Below are positions 37,734 through 48,655 of a stretch of DNA of 64,000 nt, piece after piece (position 1 is the stretch's first letter; every line of letters starts with the position of its first letter). Origin of the DNA: Sulfurimonas sp. HSL-3221 (GTDB taxonomy: Bacteria; Campylobacterota; Campylobacteria; Campylobacterales; Sulfurimonadaceae); contig NZ_CP087998.1 of NCBI RefSeq assembly GCF_021044585.1, positions 1,550,001 through 1,614,000 on the forward strand, read 5' to 3'. The translations under genes were made by a program, and so were the position numbers. The notes beneath the pieces were generated by a model. That model worked only from the letters and a program-made list of their open reading frames with translations, searched no databases and had not been told where the DNA came from.

Positions 37734-39242
37734 TTAAATATTATTTTTAAAATGAAAGACGGTGAGATTGGTGCGGCGGAAACCGCGGCGGGTGTAAAAG
37801 TGCAGTGCGTTTTCATTGTCGATATCCGCGGCAAGTTGGATGCGTTTGTAGCCGTAGGACTGTGCCATGAAACGCATTTTGTTGATGAGACGGCTGCCCA
37901 CCCCCATCTTACGGTACTCCTGTAGAACGACGAGGTCTTCGATCTGTCCGACAAAATCCCCCTCGGCGCTGGAGATGAGACGCTGCATCGTCAGCATGCC
38001 GACGACCTTCCCCTCGTGACGCGCGACAAGCAGATCGGTCCCCTCGTGGGCGTAGAGTTTTGCGATCCCCGAGAGCTGCTTGTCGAAGTCGATCTCGAAA
38101 TCCTGTTCAATCGCGAAAAGCACGCCCAGCAGTCCGGCCATATGCGGCAGGTCCTCCTCCGTTGCCGGTTCGATGGTGATCCCCGTTTTCATATTGATGT
38201 CGCAGATCTCCGGGTGGAGCACTTCAATCACCAGCTTCGCATGCTCATTCAGAGGATTGTCTCCTATATAGAGTGATTTCAGGTTCTTCATATTTGCCAG
38301 CGCTTCGGGAAGGTCGACAATGGCGTTACCGTCGATATCGAGTTCGTAGAGCTCCTCATAGCGGCTGATCGACTCGGGCAGCTCGGCAATGGCGTTGGAG
38401 GAGTAGCACAGCGACCCCAGGACGCTCGACGGCAGCATCGGGAACGCCGTCAGCCCGCAGCCGTCGCAGGAGAACGCCCGCAGATAGGGGGCGAAATCAT
38501 CCGCGATCTCCAGGGTTGAGAGCGCGTTGTCGTCGAGGGTCAGTACCTCGAGCTCGTCCAGCCCGTGCAGGGCGATGTGACGAATACGGTTCGAAGCGAG
38601 ATTGACCGATTCGACGCCGAGGGTGAAAAAGGCCTTGTCGATGGTCTCGATACGGTTGTCGGAGAGGTCCAGTTCCAGCAGGGAACTAAGGTACGCCGCC
38701 TCCGGGGGAATGGACGTGATCAGGTTGCCTTCCAGGTTCAGCCGTTCGACGGACGTGAGCTGGGCCGGCATCGCGGATATATCTTTAATATAGTTCGTCG
38801 CGAGGTTGAGGGTCCGGAGTTCATTGGGAACACTCAGACAGCGCTCAAAGCCTTCAAGAACGTTACCGCTGAGATCAAGCACCCGGAGCGTCGTGAAACG
38901 GGTCAGTTCGGAAACGTCGCTGATGCGGTTCCCGCTGAGATTGAGCGAACGGACCGGAAGCATGCCCAGGAGCGCCGGTACGGCACTGAAGGCGTTGCGC
39001 CGAAGATCGACGTTGCTCAGTTTCGTCATCGACACCATGGACTCCGGCAGGGATGAAAGCTTGTTGTTGCCCAGGTTGAGCGCGACCAGTTCGCTGAGCA
39101 GTCCGAACGCTTCAGGCAGCTGCGCCAGGGCACGGCTGCTGAGATCGAGACGCTTCACCTCCGTGGGCGCTTTGATCTCCGATGAAATGGCCCGCTGCTC
39201 CATCAACCATGCACGCAGGGTCTCCCATTGCGGTTCGGTCAT
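37734..39242 (-). CDS. Leucine-rich repeat protein fused to a GNAT acetyltransferase
   Basis: A 502-residue protein. Residues 30-345 are about thirteen leucine-rich repeats with the LxxLxLxxNxLxxLP pattern (LVALNLGNNKLSSLPESM, LLELDLSDNRIETID). Residues 350-502 are a GNAT domain with strands around IEDLVVLQEYRKMGVGSRLI (acetyl-CoA-binding motif A, Q/RxxGxG/A form) and the ENALHFYTRRGF tail. The LRR part probably selects a protein substrate and the GNAT part acetylates it. The ATG at 39242 fits the upstream AAGGAGAG better than the GTG at 39248. It is downstream of nifV in the same strand block. Confidence 0.85.
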   Translation of the reverse strand: MTEPQWETLRAWLMEQRAISSEIKAPTEVKRLDLSSRALAQLPEAFGLLSELVALNLGNNKLSSLPESMVSMTKLSNVDLRRNAFSAVPALLGMLPVRSLNLSGNRISDVSELTRFTTLRVLDLSGNVLEGFERCLSVPNELRTLNLATNYIKDISAMPAQLTSVERLNLEGNLITSIPPEAAYLSSLLELDLSDNRIETIDKAFFTLGVESVNLASNRIRHIALHGLDELEVLTLDDNALSTLEIADDFAPYLRAFSCDGCGLTAFPMLPSSVLGSLCYSSNAIAELPESISRYEELYELDIDGNAIVDLPEALANMKNLKSLYIGDNPLNEHAKLVIEVLHPEICDINMKTGITIEPATEEDLPHMAGLLGVLFAIEQDFEIDFDKQLSGIAKLYAHEGTDLLVARHEGKVVGMLTMQRLISSAEGDFVGQIEDLVVLQEYRKMGVGSRLINKMRFMAQSYGYKRIQLAADIDNENALHFYTRRGFRRTNLTVFHFKNNI

Positions 39243-39244
39243 GC

Positions 39245-39511
39245 TCACTCTCCTTCCGCCAGACGGCGTATCCGCTCGAGGCGCTGTTCAATCAGGTGTT
39301 CGATCTCTTCGAAATCATAGGTACCGAACTGGTTCATGTCGTACAATTTTACCAGTGCGGCACGGCAACAACTCTTATTGCATTCGGTCACAAGCTTTTT
39401 TGCTTTTTTGAAAGGGAGGGAGGTATTTTGAAAGATGTCGATGGCCTCGGCCACGTTTTTTTCGCCGCATTCGCAGATCTCCATCTGCAGGATCTCTTCT
39501 TTACTGCGCAT
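39245..39511 (-). CDS. Small Cys-rich protein
   Basis: An 88-residue protein with CECGEKN near the N-terminus and TECNKSCCRAALVKLYDMN in the middle, five Cys in all, plus a helical, charged C-terminus (FEEIEHLIEQRLERIRRLAEG). The spacing suggests an iron-sulfur or zinc site. It ends three bases before the LRR-GNAT start, so both are co-translated. Confidence 0.6.
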   Translation of the reverse strand: MRSKEEILQMEICECGEKNVAEAIDIFQNTSLPFKKAKKLVTECNKSCCRAALVKLYDMNQFGTYDFEEIEHLIEQRLERIRRLAEGE

Positions 39512-40055: not shown

Positions 40056-40880
40056 TTAAAGTGAAAATGCGTAAATGTTCTCGAACTTAACCGAGTTGCC
40101 GCCCTTGCTCATATGGACGAACGTCTGTTGCTGTTTGAAGTGGTACTTCTCATAAAGATCCACGACCGGCTTCACCCCGAGTGGGACATCGGCAAAGACC
40201 TTTTTGAGCCCCCGGAAATAGAGGACCCCTTTCATCATCTTCTCCGCTTCGTCCTCATGCCCTTCGCGGACCTGCCAGGGGCCCAGATAGACATGGCGTG
40301 CGTTCACGACGCTGGAGTGCTGGAACGCATTGGGCAGCGTGAACTTGAGCGAGCTTGTGCGTTCCATCTCGTCCATGAGGAACTCCAGACGGTTCTCGCC
40401 GAAGGTCTCATGGTCGATGACGGAGATGGCGGACTCGAAGTTGCCGCCGTCCAGTTCCTTCGCGTGCGCATTGGTAAAGTTGAACGGCGGCACCTTGCCG
40501 ACATTAATGAAACGGCCCACTTCCATGTTCGATTCAAAGCCGTGGGCTTTGAAAAACGGCACGAGATCCGGGTTGGCATGGAGATAGATTTTGCGGAAAT
40601 CGTTCTCCAGTACCGTCAGAAGCGTCTTGAAAAGGCGGGTGCCTATTCCCTTCTTCTGATATTCCGGACGCACCATAAAATATTTCATCTGCGCCGTTTC
40701 GGAGAAGCCGATGGACATGATCGCCCCGACAAGCTTGCCGTCTTCATAGGCGCCATAACAAAGGTGCGGAGAGTGCATCATCATCAGTTTGATATGGTAG
40801 CCGTCAGCGAGCCAGCCTACCGTATCGGCAATCTTGACCAGTTCACTGACGTCTGCAAATTTGAGCCATCCTATGAACAT
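40056..40880 (-). CDS. Tandem GNAT acetyltransferase-like protein
   Basis: A 274-residue protein with a first GNAT domain (residues 15-120, KYFMVRPEYQKKGIGTRLFK as acetyl-CoA motif) and a second divergent GNAT-like half with SSVVNARHVYLGPWQVR and GLKKVFADVPLG. It begins ten bases inside the end of nifV, so translation is coupled. The target is unknown; another GNAT fused to LRRs lies four genes downstream, hinting at lysine acetylation as a control layer. Confidence 0.75.
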   Translation of the reverse strand: MFIGWLKFADVSELVKIADTVGWLADGYHIKLMMMHSPHLCYGAYEDGKLVGAIMSIGFSETAQMKYFMVRPEYQKKGIGTRLFKTLLTVLENDFRKIYLHANPDLVPFFKAHGFESNMEVGRFINVGKVPPFNFTNAHAKELDGGNFESAISVIDHETFGENRLEFLMDEMERTSSLKFTLPNAFQHSSVVNARHVYLGPWQVREGHEDEAEKMMKGVLYFRGLKKVFADVPLGVKPVVDLYEKYHFKQQQTFVHMSKGGNSVKFENIYAFSL

Positions 40881-43762: not shown

Positions 43763-43778
43763 TGGAACGCATCTTGCA
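43763..43778 (+). promoter_or_regulatory. Sigma-54 promoter of the NifX-like gene
   Basis: TGGAACGCATCTTGCA matches the sigma-54 consensus at all but one position (A for C in GGCAC). Transcription would start near 43790, 38 bases before the ATG at 43828. Confidence 0.85.
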
Positions 43779-43827: not shown

Positions 43828-44268
43828 ATGAAGATCGCTGTCCCGTTCAGTCAACAGCTTGAGCTCTATCGCGATAACCCTTCGACCGCCCCGAAATTCG
43901 GTATTTATGAAATCGTTATGGAAAAGAGCCGGGTCGGTATCTCACTGCTGAGCGTCGAGATGAACCCCTGGTGCAAAACGGCGTGCGGCCTCTTTGACAC
44001 CTCTTCGACCACGTGTACCTGCGATGAAGAGCGCCAAAAAGACATCCGCCATATCACCGAACACTATGCCCTGCTTGAAGTGCTCGCAGGCTGCAGCTAC
44101 CTGCTGGCCGACCGTTTCTGCGACAACACCAAACGGGCACTGACCAACGGCGGCATCCATCTGTTCAAGTTTCCCTCTGTCATCCGTACGACGGAGAACG
44201 CCATCAAAAATTTCATCATAGGAGCTTCGCTTGCAAATACAGTTGAACACGTCTACTATGCGTCTTGA
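43828..44268 (+). CDS. NifX/NafY-like cofactor-binding protein
   Basis: A 146-residue protein of the dinitrogenase iron-molybdenum-cofactor family (MKIAVPFSQQLELYRDNPST...). Cys-rich centre: NPWCKTACGLFDTSSTTCTC. It ends FIIGASLANTVEHVY. Such proteins hold the iron-sulfur core or FeMo-cofactor between NifB and NifEN or NifD. The ATG at 43828 lies 50 bases after the sigma-54 -12 box. It overlaps the next gene by 38 bases. Confidence 0.75.
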   Translation: MKIAVPFSQQLELYRDNPSTAPKFGIYEIVMEKSRVGISLLSVEMNPWCKTACGLFDTSSTTCTCDEERQKDIRHITEHYALLEVLAGCSYLLADRFCDNTKRALTNGGIHLFKFPSVIRTTENAIKNFIIGASLANTVEHVYYAS

Positions 44269-44740
44269 AGAGCAGCCGCTTGACATCGGATACGCTTCCG
44301 AAAAGGTCACGCTCAAAGCCCCGGACGGTACGTCACAGAGTGTCGGGGGACAGGACGGTAAGACCCACCTGATCGTGACGGTCCCTTTTATAGATGACAA
44401 CTGCATCGCCGAACTGCAAGCTATCGGCAAGGCCCTTCCGAAAGCCGACGATGTCACCGCGTCGCTGATCGTCGCCGCAACCTCCCACGAGGACCCCAAA
44501 GTCGAAGGCTTCCGCTTCCTGCTTGACAGCGACGAAGAGTTCGCCGACTGGTACGGTGTCCGCCTCAGCGGTGAGCCCCTTGATGGGGAGCTGACCAAGG
44601 CCCTGTTCATCATCTCCAAGGATGGTGCACTCTACTACGATGAATTTGCCAAGAACCTGCATGATCCGTTCAACGCCGAAACGGCCGTACGGAAAGTCTA
44701 CGCTGCGCAAGAATGCTATACCGGGAAAGGATGCCACTAA
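44231..44740 (+). CDS. Tpx-like peroxiredoxin
   Basis: A 169-residue thioredoxin-fold peroxidase. The likely peroxidatic Cys is in PFIDDNCIAELQAI, aligning with the SIDTPVC of thiol peroxidase; the second (resolving) Cys of Tpx seems to be missing. FADWYGVRLSGEPLDGELTK matches the C-terminal Tpx block. The start is a TTG at 44231 with GGAG six bases upstream, overlapping the NifX-like gene. In a nif operon it probably guards nitrogenase from peroxide. Confidence 0.75.
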   Translation: MQIQLNTSTMRLEEQPLDIGYASEKVTLKAPDGTSQSVGGQDGKTHLIVTVPFIDDNCIAELQAIGKALPKADDVTASLIVAATSHEDPKVEGFRFLLDSDEEFADWYGVRLSGEPLDGELTKALFIISKDGALYYDEFAKNLHDPFNAETAVRKVYAAQECYTGKGCH

Positions 44741-45606
44741 TGAGCGAAACAATGACCACAACAGAGACCAAAGACTACAGTGAACTGATCGAAACGATCA
44801 AGAAAGAGATCCGCAACCAGACGACCGTCCCCTATTTCGGACTGGGAATCTTCAAAGGCATCACGACCAAAGAGGGCGAACAGATGCCTTTTGACTCGGA
44901 TTCGATGATCCTGATGATGAACAACGGCCGCGCCATGAGCCCGCGCCTGATGTTCGAATACTCCCGTGCCGCCATGCACCTGGAGCAGCGCCGGGGCGTC
45001 GACTACATCCAGCAGATGACCAACTGGATCTACACCAAGGAGTTCGAGCCGACGCCGCTGCACAAGGCGATCCTGAACATGTCGCCGCGCTACATCATCG
45101 ACACCAACCGCGATGCCAAGCTGCAGGAGATGCTCGCATTCGAACCGCACACGTTCATCATCGGGAAGTCCCGTATCCTTGACAACGACTACCGCTACGA
45201 GATCTACGAGTGGGATGTCGAGAACAAGAAGTACTTCCAGGTCGACGAAGAGGCCCTCGACGACGCCCAGAAGATCCTCTTCAAGCCGATGGGTTCCCCG
45301 CTGCCGGACCCGAGCTTCGTCATCTCCGACGCCGACTATGTCGACTGGCTGACCGAAGCGATGGGCGGCTATGCCGTCCCGTCCGTCCTCAAAACCTACC
45401 GCAAGACGAAAAAGTACCTCTTCATGGGCACCTATTTCGACCGCGATACCGACCGTATGGTCGCCAACGAGCTGACACACGACCTCGAAGGCGGTTACTT
45501 CATCACCGACCAGGAGCTCGGTAAAAAAGAGAAGAAATTCGTCGAGAAACACAATCTCGAAGTGATCGAGATGACGCTCGAAGCCTTCACCGAGGCCTTT
45601 ATCTAA
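44740..45606 (+). CDS. SIR2-like domain protein in the nif operon
   Basis: A 288-residue protein starting at the ATG at 44740 that overlaps the stop of the previous gene (TAATG). Residues 30-42 read VPYFGLGIFKG, in the place of the SIR2 GAG loop; residues 105-130 contain PLHKAILNMSPRYIIDTNRDAKLQE, close to the SIR2 TTNYDxLLE motif. SIR2-like proteins bind NAD and may deacetylate or ADP-ribosylate proteins, or degrade NAD. A regulator of nitrogenase is attractive but not shown. The GAG and NID catalytic details are not standard. Confidence 0.7.
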   Translation: MSETMTTTETKDYSELIETIKKEIRNQTTVPYFGLGIFKGITTKEGEQMPFDSDSMILMMNNGRAMSPRLMFEYSRAAMHLEQRRGVDYIQQMTNWIYTKEFEPTPLHKAILNMSPRYIIDTNRDAKLQEMLAFEPHTFIIGKSRILDNDYRYEIYEWDVENKKYFQVDEEALDDAQKILFKPMGSPLPDPSFVISDADYVDWLTEAMGGYAVPSVLKTYRKTKKYLFMGTYFDRDTDRMVANELTHDLEGGYFITDQELGKKEKKFVEKHNLEVIEMTLEAFTEAFI

Positions 45607-45618
45607 ACAATATACACC

Positions 45619-45634
45619 TGCCCCATGCGGGGCA
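45619..45634 (+). terminator. Hairpin after the SIR2-like gene
   Basis: TGCCCC-ATGC-GGGGCA, a perfect six-base stem, 13 bases after the stop codon. No T-run follows; it may be a stabiliser or weak terminator. Confidence 0.5.
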
Positions 45635-45699: not shown

Positions 45700-46296
45700 A
45701 TGCCATACATACCAACCGTAAAAGACAGAACCCCCCGGGGCGAACGCTATTTTGACCTTTTTTCCAAACTGATGGGCGACCGTGTCGTCATGATCACCGA
45801 ACCGATCGACGACCACATGATGGGGATCATCGTCTCCCAGCTGCTTTATCTTGAAGCCGAAGATTCCGAAGAGCCGATCCACATGTATATCAGTTCTCCG
45901 GGCGGTTCGGTGATGGCGGGCCTCGCCATCCTCGACACCATGCAGCTGATCAGCGCACCGGTCTACACCTACGGCCTCGGGATGGTCGCTTCCATGGCAG
46001 CCGTTCTCTTTACCTGCGGCGAACCGGGACACCGCTACGTACTCCCCAACGCCGAAGTGATGATCCACCAGCCCCTCGGTGGTGCACAGGGCCAGGCCAG
46101 CGACATCGAGATCCAGGCCAACCATATTATCAGCCTGAAAAGACGTCTCTACAAGATCCTCTCCGAAGCCACCGGCGCGACAGTCAAAACCATTGAGAAA
46201 GCCAGCGACCGTGACAACTATTTCATTGCCGAAGATGCTATCAAATTCGGTCTGGCGGACCAGATCCTCAATGCTATTACGAAAAAGGAAGTCTGA
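45700..46296 (+). CDS. clpP: ATP-dependent Clp protease proteolytic subunit
   Basis: A 198-residue ClpP serine protease. The triad is visible as Ser98 (GMVASMAAV), His123 (MIHQPLGG) and Asp172 (SDRDNYF). The pair clpP-clpX overlaps by one base (TGATG). Its placement behind nif genes suggests that it is a nitrogenase-specific copy beside a housekeeping clpP elsewhere. It would form the chamber fed by the ClpX made next. Confidence 0.9.
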   Translation: MPYIPTVKDRTPRGERYFDLFSKLMGDRVVMITEPIDDHMMGIIVSQLLYLEAEDSEEPIHMYISSPGGSVMAGLAILDTMQLISAPVYTYGLGMVASMAAVLFTCGEPGHRYVLPNAEVMIHQPLGGAQGQASDIEIQANHIISLKRRLYKILSEATGATVKTIEKASDRDNYFIAEDAIKFGLADQILNAITKKEV

Positions 46297-47522
46297 TGAG
46301 TACCAAAGAAGAAAAAACATGTTCGTTCTGCGGGCGTAAGCAGAGCGAAGTGAAAAAAATGTTCTCTTCGGAGAACACCAATATCTGTAACGAGTGTGTC
46401 ACGACCTGTTCGAACATCCTGCAAAAGGAAGTCCGCTACGAACAGCAGGAGAAACTGCACCAGGAGCTGCCGAAGCCCGCGAAGATCGTCGATTTCCTCG
46501 ACAAGTACATTATCGGTCAGGAGGACGCGAAAAAAGTTCTCGCCGTCGCGCTGTACAACCACTACAAGCGGATCGAAAACCCGATCTACAATAATGTCGA
46601 GCTGGAAAAATCGAACATTATGCTGCTCGGACCGACGGGGAGCGGTAAGACGCTGCTCGCCAAGTCCCTGGCGAAGATCATGAACGTCCCCTTCGCCGTC
46701 GCCGATGCCACGGCCCTGACCGAAGCGGGCTACGTCGGCGAAGACGTCGAGAGCATCCTCTCACGCCTCCTCGCCGCGGCCAACTACGACATCGAAGCCG
46801 CCCAGCGCGGGATCATCTACATCGACGAGATCGACAAGATCGCCCGCAAGAGCGAGAGTGCCACGATGGGCCGCGACGTCTCCGGCGAGGGTGTCCAGCA
46901 GGGTCTGCTCAAGATTCTGGAAGGCAGCGAAGTCTACGTCCCGGTCAAGGGAAGCCGCAAAAACTCCACGACGGAGACGGTGCTCTTCGATACGACGCAC
47001 GTTCTCTTCGTCTGTGGGGGCGCCTTTGTCGGCCTCGTGCCGGACAAACATACGAAGCGTACCAATAAGGTCGGCTTCGCGAAGGTTCAGAAGAGCGAGA
47101 TGGCTGCCGACTTCAAAGTCGACCAGCGCGCCCTGGTCCACTACGGTATCATCCCCGAGTTCATCGGGCGTATCCCCGTCATCGCGCAGCTGCGCGAACT
47201 GACCAAGGATCAGATGGTCCAGATTCTCCAGGAACCGGACAACGCCCTGATCAAGCAGTTCCAGGCGCTCTTCGAGATGGACGGTATCACCCTCGAGTTC
47301 GAAGACAAGGCTCTCGAAGCGATCGCCCAGCAGGCGATCGACAAGGGTGTCGGTGCCCGCGGTCTGCGCGGGATCATCGAAGAGGCGATGCTGCCGCTGC
47401 AGTACAGCTGCCCCTCAAGAGACAACCTCGAAAGTGTCACGATCACCGAGGCGGTCGTCGCCGATCCGACAACCGAACCGATCTACACCTTCAAAAAAGA
47501 GGACGAGAGCGCCGAGGCGTAA
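46296..47522 (+). CDS. clpX: ClpX unfoldase
   Basis: A 408-residue AAA+ unfoldase with an N-terminal zinc finger (CSFCGRK and CNEC; Cys9, 12, 31, 34), Walker A GPTGSGKT at 112-119, Walker B YIDEID and pore loop GYVG. The ClpP-binding IGF loop reads VGF here (NKVGFAKVQ). It feeds tagged or bound proteins into ClpP. In Azotobacter vinelandii a clpX copy lies with nif genes and degrades NifB and NifEN, a precedent for such a role. Confidence 0.92.
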
Positions 47523-47659: not shown

Positions 47660-48655
47660 ATGTTTTCAAAAAACCGTTATGCCATTGATCTAGGAACGGA
47701 CAATACCATCGTCTATGAACCCTCGCGCGGCATCATCTTTAACGAACCGACCTGCGTCACATTGAACAAAAGCAGCGGCAAAACGCTTTGCATCGGACAC
47801 GAGGCCAAAAAGATGCTGGGCAAGACACCGCCGCACCTCCCCGTCATCCGCCCTCTTTCGCAAGGCGCCATCGCCAATCTCGATGCGACGGTGCTCTTTT
47901 TGAAGCATCTCATCAAAATGCTGATGCGCAAACGCAGCCTTTTTGGTCCCGCGATCGCCGTCAGCGTTCCCTTCGACCTCACACGCTACGAACGCAACGC
48001 CGTCAAATCGGCCGGCCTTCAAAGCGGAGCGGGCAGCGTCGTGATGATCAAAGACCCCTATTCGGCGGCCATCGGGGCCGGCATCGACTTCCACTCCCCC
48101 GACGGGGCCCTGCTGCTCGATATCGGCAGCGGCGTCACCGAGATCTCCCTGCTCGGCTGCGGCGGTATCGTCGCATCGCACTCCGTACGCTCTGCCGGAT
48201 GGGACTTTGAGCAAGACATCATTCACCATTTCGACAGCGTGCACCGCGAAAGGATCTCATCGCGCGATGCCGAGTTGCTTAAACTGCAACTTTCCCGTCA
48301 TGACAGAGGTGACACGACGGAGGTCCATGCCCTCAGCCGCGACAATGCCCTGCCCCATGTCCTGCAGATCCCGAAGTGCGAAGTACGGGAGGCATTGAAA
48401 CCCAGTATCCTCCGTCTTGGCCGCTTCGTAAAAACGTTCATGCGTACCCTCCCCCCGGATTTCGCCCCACGTCTCCGCGATAACGGCCTCTACCTGACCG
48501 GAGGCAGTGCACTGCTTGGCGGTCTGAGCGGTCACCTCGAAAATGCGCTTGGGCTCAAAACCGTCCTCGGCCGTGATCCCCTCCTGGAGATCGCCCTGGG
48601 TGCCGGGCGCATCATGGAGGACCGTAAGCTTTTTGCGCATCTCAGCGCCAGGTAA
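47660..48655 (+). CDS. MreB-like actin-family ATPase
   Basis: A 331-residue MreB paralogue. Actin-fold elements: AIDLGTDNTIVYEP (phosphate 1), LLLDIGSGVTEISLL (phosphate 2) and YLTGGSALLGGLSG (adenosine). It is shorter than housekeeping MreB and has a degenerate middle (SRHDRGDTTEV). It stands alone between clpX and a diguanylate cyclase. It may organise a specialised polar or envelope structure, or be a regulator; its function cannot be read from context. Confidence 0.75.
   Translation: MFSKNRYAIDLGTDNTIVYEPSRGIIFNEPTCVTLNKSSGKTLCIGHEAKKMLGKTPPHLPVIRPLSQGAIANLDATVLFLKHLIKMLMRKRSLFGPAIAVSVPFDLTRYERNAVKSAGLQSGAGSVVMIKDPYSAAIGAGIDFHSPDGALLLDIGSGVTEISLLGCGGIVASHSVRSAGWDFEQDIIHHFDSVHRERISSRDAELLKLQLSRHDRGDTTEVHALSRDNALPHVLQIPKCEVREALKPSILRLGRFVKTFMRTLPPDFAPRLRDNGLYLTGGSALLGGLSGHLENALGLKTVLGRDPLLEIALGAGRIMEDRKLFAHLSAR

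Follow-up and report, generated by a model that had tools for sequence, protein, structure and literature searches.

What role does a SIR2-like protein play in a nitrogen fixation operon? The question is raised by a gene of the window analyzed here, a stretch of 64,000 nucleotides from Sulfurimonas sp. HSL-3221, where a 288-aa open reading frame (44740-45606, + strand) lies within a Campylobacterota nif cluster. An earlier note on this DNA had suggested that the product might be an enzyme that depends on NAD and has NifH or acetylated Nif proteins as its targets. That suggestion found no support, as none of the family members examined has a complete catalytic dyad and the GAGxS loop is degenerate. 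Instead, we lean slightly towards a non-catalytic SIR2-fold nif accessory protein, which here may be partnered with a ClpXP dedicated to nif.

The reading frame is a real one. It is open and conserved across ~275 aa in >20 Campylobacterota genomes; the first ~14 residues vary among relatives, and an alternative in-frame ATG lies at 44713. The gene is the third of a tight unit, behind the genes for a NifX/NifB-C-terminus-like protein (43828-44268, +; weak Pfam match to Nitro_FeMo-Co, E 0.1, in a position that is kept in relatives) and for a peroxiredoxin of the Redoxin family (44258-44740, +; Pfam E 5e-7), which overlaps both flanking genes. The TAA stop of the peroxiredoxin (44738-44740) shares bases with the SIR2-like ATG, confirming the TAATG overlap described before, and the gene order supports the earlier view that the SIR2-like gene belongs to the nif transcription unit. 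The sigma-54 promoter proposed for this unit fared less well. A sigma-54-like (-24/-12) site, TGGAACGCATCTTGCA, is indeed present at 43763-43778 (+), 65 bp upstream of the first gene and with one mismatch to TGGCAC-N5-TTGCW. However, ~1.6 sites of such quality are expected by chance in the 64-kb window, and of the relatives just two near ones, L016 and L036, showed the site again, likewise ahead of the unit. Weak when taken alone, it gains credence from its position ahead of the unit, and a promoter here is plausible, not strongly supported.

On the 3' side, a gap of 93 bp leads to the gene for a second ClpP (45700-46296, +), which is overlapped by the gene for a second ClpX (46296-47522, +). 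Since the 16-base inverted repeat in the gap (45619-45634) has no T run, and since in several relatives the SIR2-like gene and the downstream clp gene are separated by a few bases only, the SIR2-like gene and clpP/clpX are likely carried on a single transcript. Between the ClpX gene and nifS there is also an MreB/Mbl-like gene (47660-48655, +; Pfam E 1e-80).

The match of the protein to Pfam SIR2_2 (PF13289) is borderline, as its score of 24.5 bits (E 3e-5) equals the gathering cut-off of 24.5 exactly; its homologues score 28-76 bits. An AlphaFold2 model of moderate confidence (mean pLDDT 77.6, pTM 0.82) retrieved the SIR2 domains of DSR2, ThsA and Avs5 in Foldseek with a probability of 1.00 (E 1e-7 to 1e-5, TM ~0.5), and among solved structures the family profile matched ThsA (E 2.6e-7). 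A chance similarity to SIR2 is ruled out by the Pfam, profile and fold searches, and the predicted structure gives the product a SIR2 fold, as the earlier note had anticipated. The relationship to canonical sirtuins such as CobB (PF02146) is a distant one at the level of the fold: the SIR2-like protein showed no match to PF02146 up to E 10, lacks the catalytic His, and contains no cysteine and therefore no zinc site. A separate, intact canonical sirtuin with GAGLS, TQNVD and HLHG kept is encoded elsewhere in the genome. Neither NCBIfam nor PADLOC has a curated model for the nif SIR2-like family.

In ThsA of the Thoeris system, Asn112 and His152 are required for NAD+ cleavage, and the N112A and H152A variants failed to bind NAD+ (PMC7272460); the active site of DSR2 consists of N133, Y134, D135 and H171 (PMC11263360). 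The SIR2 domains of ThsA and DSR2 have their fold and motif order in common with the window protein, but they have GAGxS, TTNYD and the catalytic His intact and serve phage defence by degrading NAD+, whereas the window protein is a lone SIR2 domain with an incomplete dyad in a nif operon. Its catalytic positions were placed at residues 123 and 184 by profile alignment to ThsA and by multiple alignment with a Thoeris SIR2 outgroup. Residues 30-42 and 105-130, which had been noted as resembling SIR2 motifs, do fall on the GAGxS-like and TTNYD-like positions. Codons 34-38 (44839-44853, +) encode GLGIF, a degenerate counterpart of the GAGxS NAD loop, and the subsequent SxxxGF segment is absent when aligned with GAGLSAPAGF of the outgroup. 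Codon 123 (45106-45108, +) encodes an Asn that aligns with the catalytic N112 of ThsA (TTNYD), and codon 184 (45289-45291, +) a Met that replaces the catalytic His (H152 in ThsA).

Defects in these motifs extend through the family, for which we aligned 50 sequences (41 Campylobacterota and 9 Pseudomonadota) and, separately, 6 further plasmid homologues. All 41 Campylobacterota members have Asn at position 123 combined with Met (34) or Leu (7) at position 184. Conversely, the Pseudomonadota homologues all have Trp where the window protein keeps Asn, and many of them keep the His that the window protein lost: the 9 in the main alignment carry His, Tyr, Leu or Ile at 184, and the 6 additional ones carry His. 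Asn and His occur together in 0/50 aligned members and in 0/6 of the extra plasmid homologues. The NAD loop of the family reads GLGIF or GPGLL instead of GAGxS, with a shortened segment behind it, while the Thoeris outgroup in the same alignment retains GAGLS, TTNYD and YKMHG. No published report of the missing dyad was found in the literature searched, the coverage of which was incomplete.

Despite the loss of the dyad the protein is under constraint, since a signature, SD[AS]D[YF]V[DE]x[LI]TE, is present in 50/50 family members. In total, 26 positions of the window protein are invariant or nearly invariant over these 50 sequences, and D121, D125, G185 and G230 are invariant. Judged from the alignments, the fold appears to be held under constraint while the known SIR2 chemistry is apparently lost, and we infer with good confidence that the protein has no catalytic activity. 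It is possible that family members use a chemistry other than the known SIR2 reactions, and the two invariant aspartates together with the remaining SIR2 strand order would make nucleotide binding by the family possible.

The distribution of the gene follows that of nitrogenase. Of 200 Campylobacterota genomes surveyed, 22 had NifH above the curated cut-off and 178 did not, and the SIR2-like family was found in 20/22 of the former and 0/178 of the latter (Fisher p ~1e-25, with no correction for shared ancestry). This count leaves out G156, in which a marginal match lies inside an unrelated 900-aa frame. Homologues are thus not mostly located away from nif genes, and the co-occurrence with nifH in related genomes, which the earlier note had named as a check, is borne out. 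In the family to which the window genome belongs, the gene is present in 12/12 nifH-positive and in 0/13 nifH-negative genomes; these nifH-negative members without the gene counter the explanation that the co-occurrence is an artefact of clade. In G025 no nifH match exceeded the cut-off, yet the contig with the SIR2-like gene also carries ClpX and NifA, and this exception is likely due to an incomplete genome. What looks like the sole real exception to the nif linkage is G040, where a family member is split across two contig ends (L083 and L084) with no nif genes near it and no nifH in a genome that is 97% complete.

G169 (L077) and G212 (L086) belong to the same genus, and their SIR2-like proteins are 49% and 76% identical to that of the window and lie in clearly different types of cluster, which suggests that the nif cluster may have been replaced horizontally in this genus. 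In the window itself, two genes for GNAT-type acetyltransferases are found between nifH and nifB; one (37734-39248, -) is fused to leucine-rich repeats, the other lies at 40056-40880 (-). Such genes recur in many related nif clusters, and it is possible that the two proteins are writers of Nif acetylation.

Outside Campylobacterota we sampled plasmid-borne homologues of Pseudomonadota. Among 72,556 plasmids, tblastn gave 73 records, from rhizobial genera, Methylococcus, Paraburkholderia and Microvirga only, with 18-26% identity to the window protein. The rhizobial and Methylococcus homologues have full-length similarity to it and the signature SD[AS]DxV[DE]xxTE in common with it. All annotated plasmid cases examined (15/15) sit in nif operons, typically in the order nifB-fdxN-nifZ-nifT-SIR2 in rhizobia, and the Methylococcus and Paraburkholderia copies are likewise in nif operons. 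Other families of Campylobacterota show nifT-nifA-(peroxiredoxin)-SIR2-clpX. Since nifT is found near the SIR2-like gene in both groups, the link between the two genes persists over a large evolutionary distance. On the Microvirga lotononidis plasmid L047 (5800-6900) the homologue is interrupted by stops and distributed among three reading frames, which looks like decay of the copy or poor sequence, and several records of Rhizobium symbiotic plasmids have two or three tblastn places, possibly extra partial copies. By description, Rcc03262 of R. capsulatus, ZMO1821 of Z. mobilis, PST_1325 of P. stutzeri and a nifT-linked gene of Rhodovulum are also nif-cluster genes for SIR2 family proteins. 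In Rhodobacter capsulatus, Rcc03262, whose gene adjoins that of NifT, was missing when there was no NifA (PMC6925177), and ZMO1821 rises with nitrogenase in Zymomonas mobilis (PMC8600466).

The adjoining nif-dedicated ClpXP adds to the picture given by the earlier note. In 31/38 distinct Campylobacterota loci the next gene 3' of the SIR2-like gene is clpP or clpX. Housekeeping ClpX and ClpP are encoded elsewhere in the window genome, and a second ClpX is present in 17/22 nifH-positive and 0/178 nifH-negative Campylobacterota genomes (p ~1e-20). The nif ClpX copies form a single clade separate from housekeeping ClpX, with a support of 100/100, in a tree that included two fragmentary housekeeping sequences (216 and 285 aa). 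The nif ClpP retains its Ser-His-Asp triad, and the nif ClpX retains the zinc-finger cysteines, Walker A and the GYVG and VGF loops. A second ClpX is likewise tied to nitrogen fixation in Azotobacter vinelandii, where ClpX2, which we liken by description, reportedly regulates both NifB and NifEN (Martinez-Noel 2011, as given in citing papers), and in Azoarcus, where clpX/clpP are under NifA control (PMC3916325). Compared with these, ClpP is duplicated too in the window locus and the ClpP-ClpX pair lies 3' of the SIR2-like gene. The nif plasmid of Methylococcus also has clpP and clpX in its nif region; because its ClpX groups with that of E. coli, nif ClpX may have been recruited independently in Campylobacterota and Methylococcus.

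The two genes do not always occur side by side. No ClpX adjoins the SIR2-like gene in four genomes, all of one genus, and at three single loci. In G193 (L097) a nif ClpX lies between nifT and nifA and there is no SIR2-like gene, so that ClpX can persist without it. The rhizobial SIR2-like genes do not adjoin ClpX, and the ClpX partnership therefore cannot be the general function of the family; in rhizobia either the partner has its gene at another site, or it is with NifT/NifZ/NifB that the family has its general role.

How else could a SIR2 fold serve nitrogen fixation? One alternative is a nucleotide sensor, which would bind a nucleotide such as NAD(H) or ADP-ribose but leave it unhydrolysed, and thereby tune nitrogenase assembly to the redox or energy state of the cell. 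The Rossmann-like fold with its four invariant residues and partly retained motifs is in line with such a role, as is the putative co-expression with the peroxiredoxin. On the other hand, the GAGxS segment is shortened, and the behaviour of the ThsA variants implies that the loss of one residue of the dyad may abolish binding (PMC7272460). Altogether, we find a sensor rather unlikely.

ZMO1821 has been proposed in print as a likely deacetylase, and NifA, NifH and NifK are acetylated in Z. mobilis during N2 fixation (PMC8600466). By extension, the window protein could be an NAD-dependent deacylase reversing the lysine acetylation of Nif proteins, with the GNAT-type proteins of the cluster, which recur in relatives, as the writers. 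The residues of the homologues aligned here do not support a deacetylase, however, since Met or Leu stands for the catalytic His in 41/41 Campylobacterota and the NAD loop is degenerate. Together with the missing PF02146 match and zinc site, and with a canonical sirtuin present elsewhere in the genome, this makes the proposal very unlikely.

Still less probable is an enzyme that ADP-ribosylates or de-ribosylates Arg112 of NifH by analogy with DraT/DraG. The target Arg is retained in NifH, as stated in the earlier note, but this Arg is conserved in NifH generally, which makes it unspecific as evidence, and the catalytic residues are missing; a genome search for DraT gave no match, its control being silent too, and the analogy thus received no positive support. 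That the gene is a passenger of the nif region and encodes an anti-phage SIR2 NADase is hardly conceivable, although the nearest solved structures are defence SIR2 domains, given that PADLOC gave no defence-model match for the gene, its neighbours are nif genes and not defence partners, its dyad is broken and the family is nif-tied across two phyla. On the PADLOC result and the gene context we rejected a defence-gene identity, and a search of phage records for the protein returned noise only.

We return to the non-catalytic accessory protein. The SIR2-like protein would be co-expressed with nitrogenase assembly genes and, with a broken Asn-His dyad and a broken NAD loop, could not use the known SIR2 chemistry. 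It would then most likely act by binding, as a scaffold, sensor or adaptor in the maturation of nitrogenase cofactor or protein, and a role in nitrogenase maturation or quality control is fairly probable. In Campylobacterota it may work with nif ClpX, and with ClpP as well in the family of the window genome, as an adaptor or regulator. The physical partnership with ClpXP that gene order hints at is tentative, as genes of a nif cluster may be neighbours by coincidence. By the precedent of Azotobacter ClpX2, NifB or NifEN might be the substrates that are presented or protected. A more specific version, in our estimate quite unlikely, is that this pseudo-sirtuin serves nif ClpXP as a substrate adaptor or as a reader of modifications, perhaps recognizing Nif proteins marked by the cluster acetyltransferases, and so sets the turnover of NifB/NifEN or of damaged nitrogenase. 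If true, it would constitute a so far undescribed proteolytic quality-control branch of nitrogenase assembly.

The family is already known as an annotation. As far as the literature searched shows, neither the loss of the dyad throughout the family nor its association with a nif-only ClpXP has been described. The gene accompanies nitrogenase in at least two phyla, and the sole published guess at its function, a deacetylase, is contradicted by the active site. The pairing with ClpXP in Campylobacterota permits a specific question, namely whether the stability of Nif proteins depends on the SIR2-like protein. If the protein is a factor in assembly or turnover, it may be a piece that is lacking when nif clusters are transferred into new hosts.
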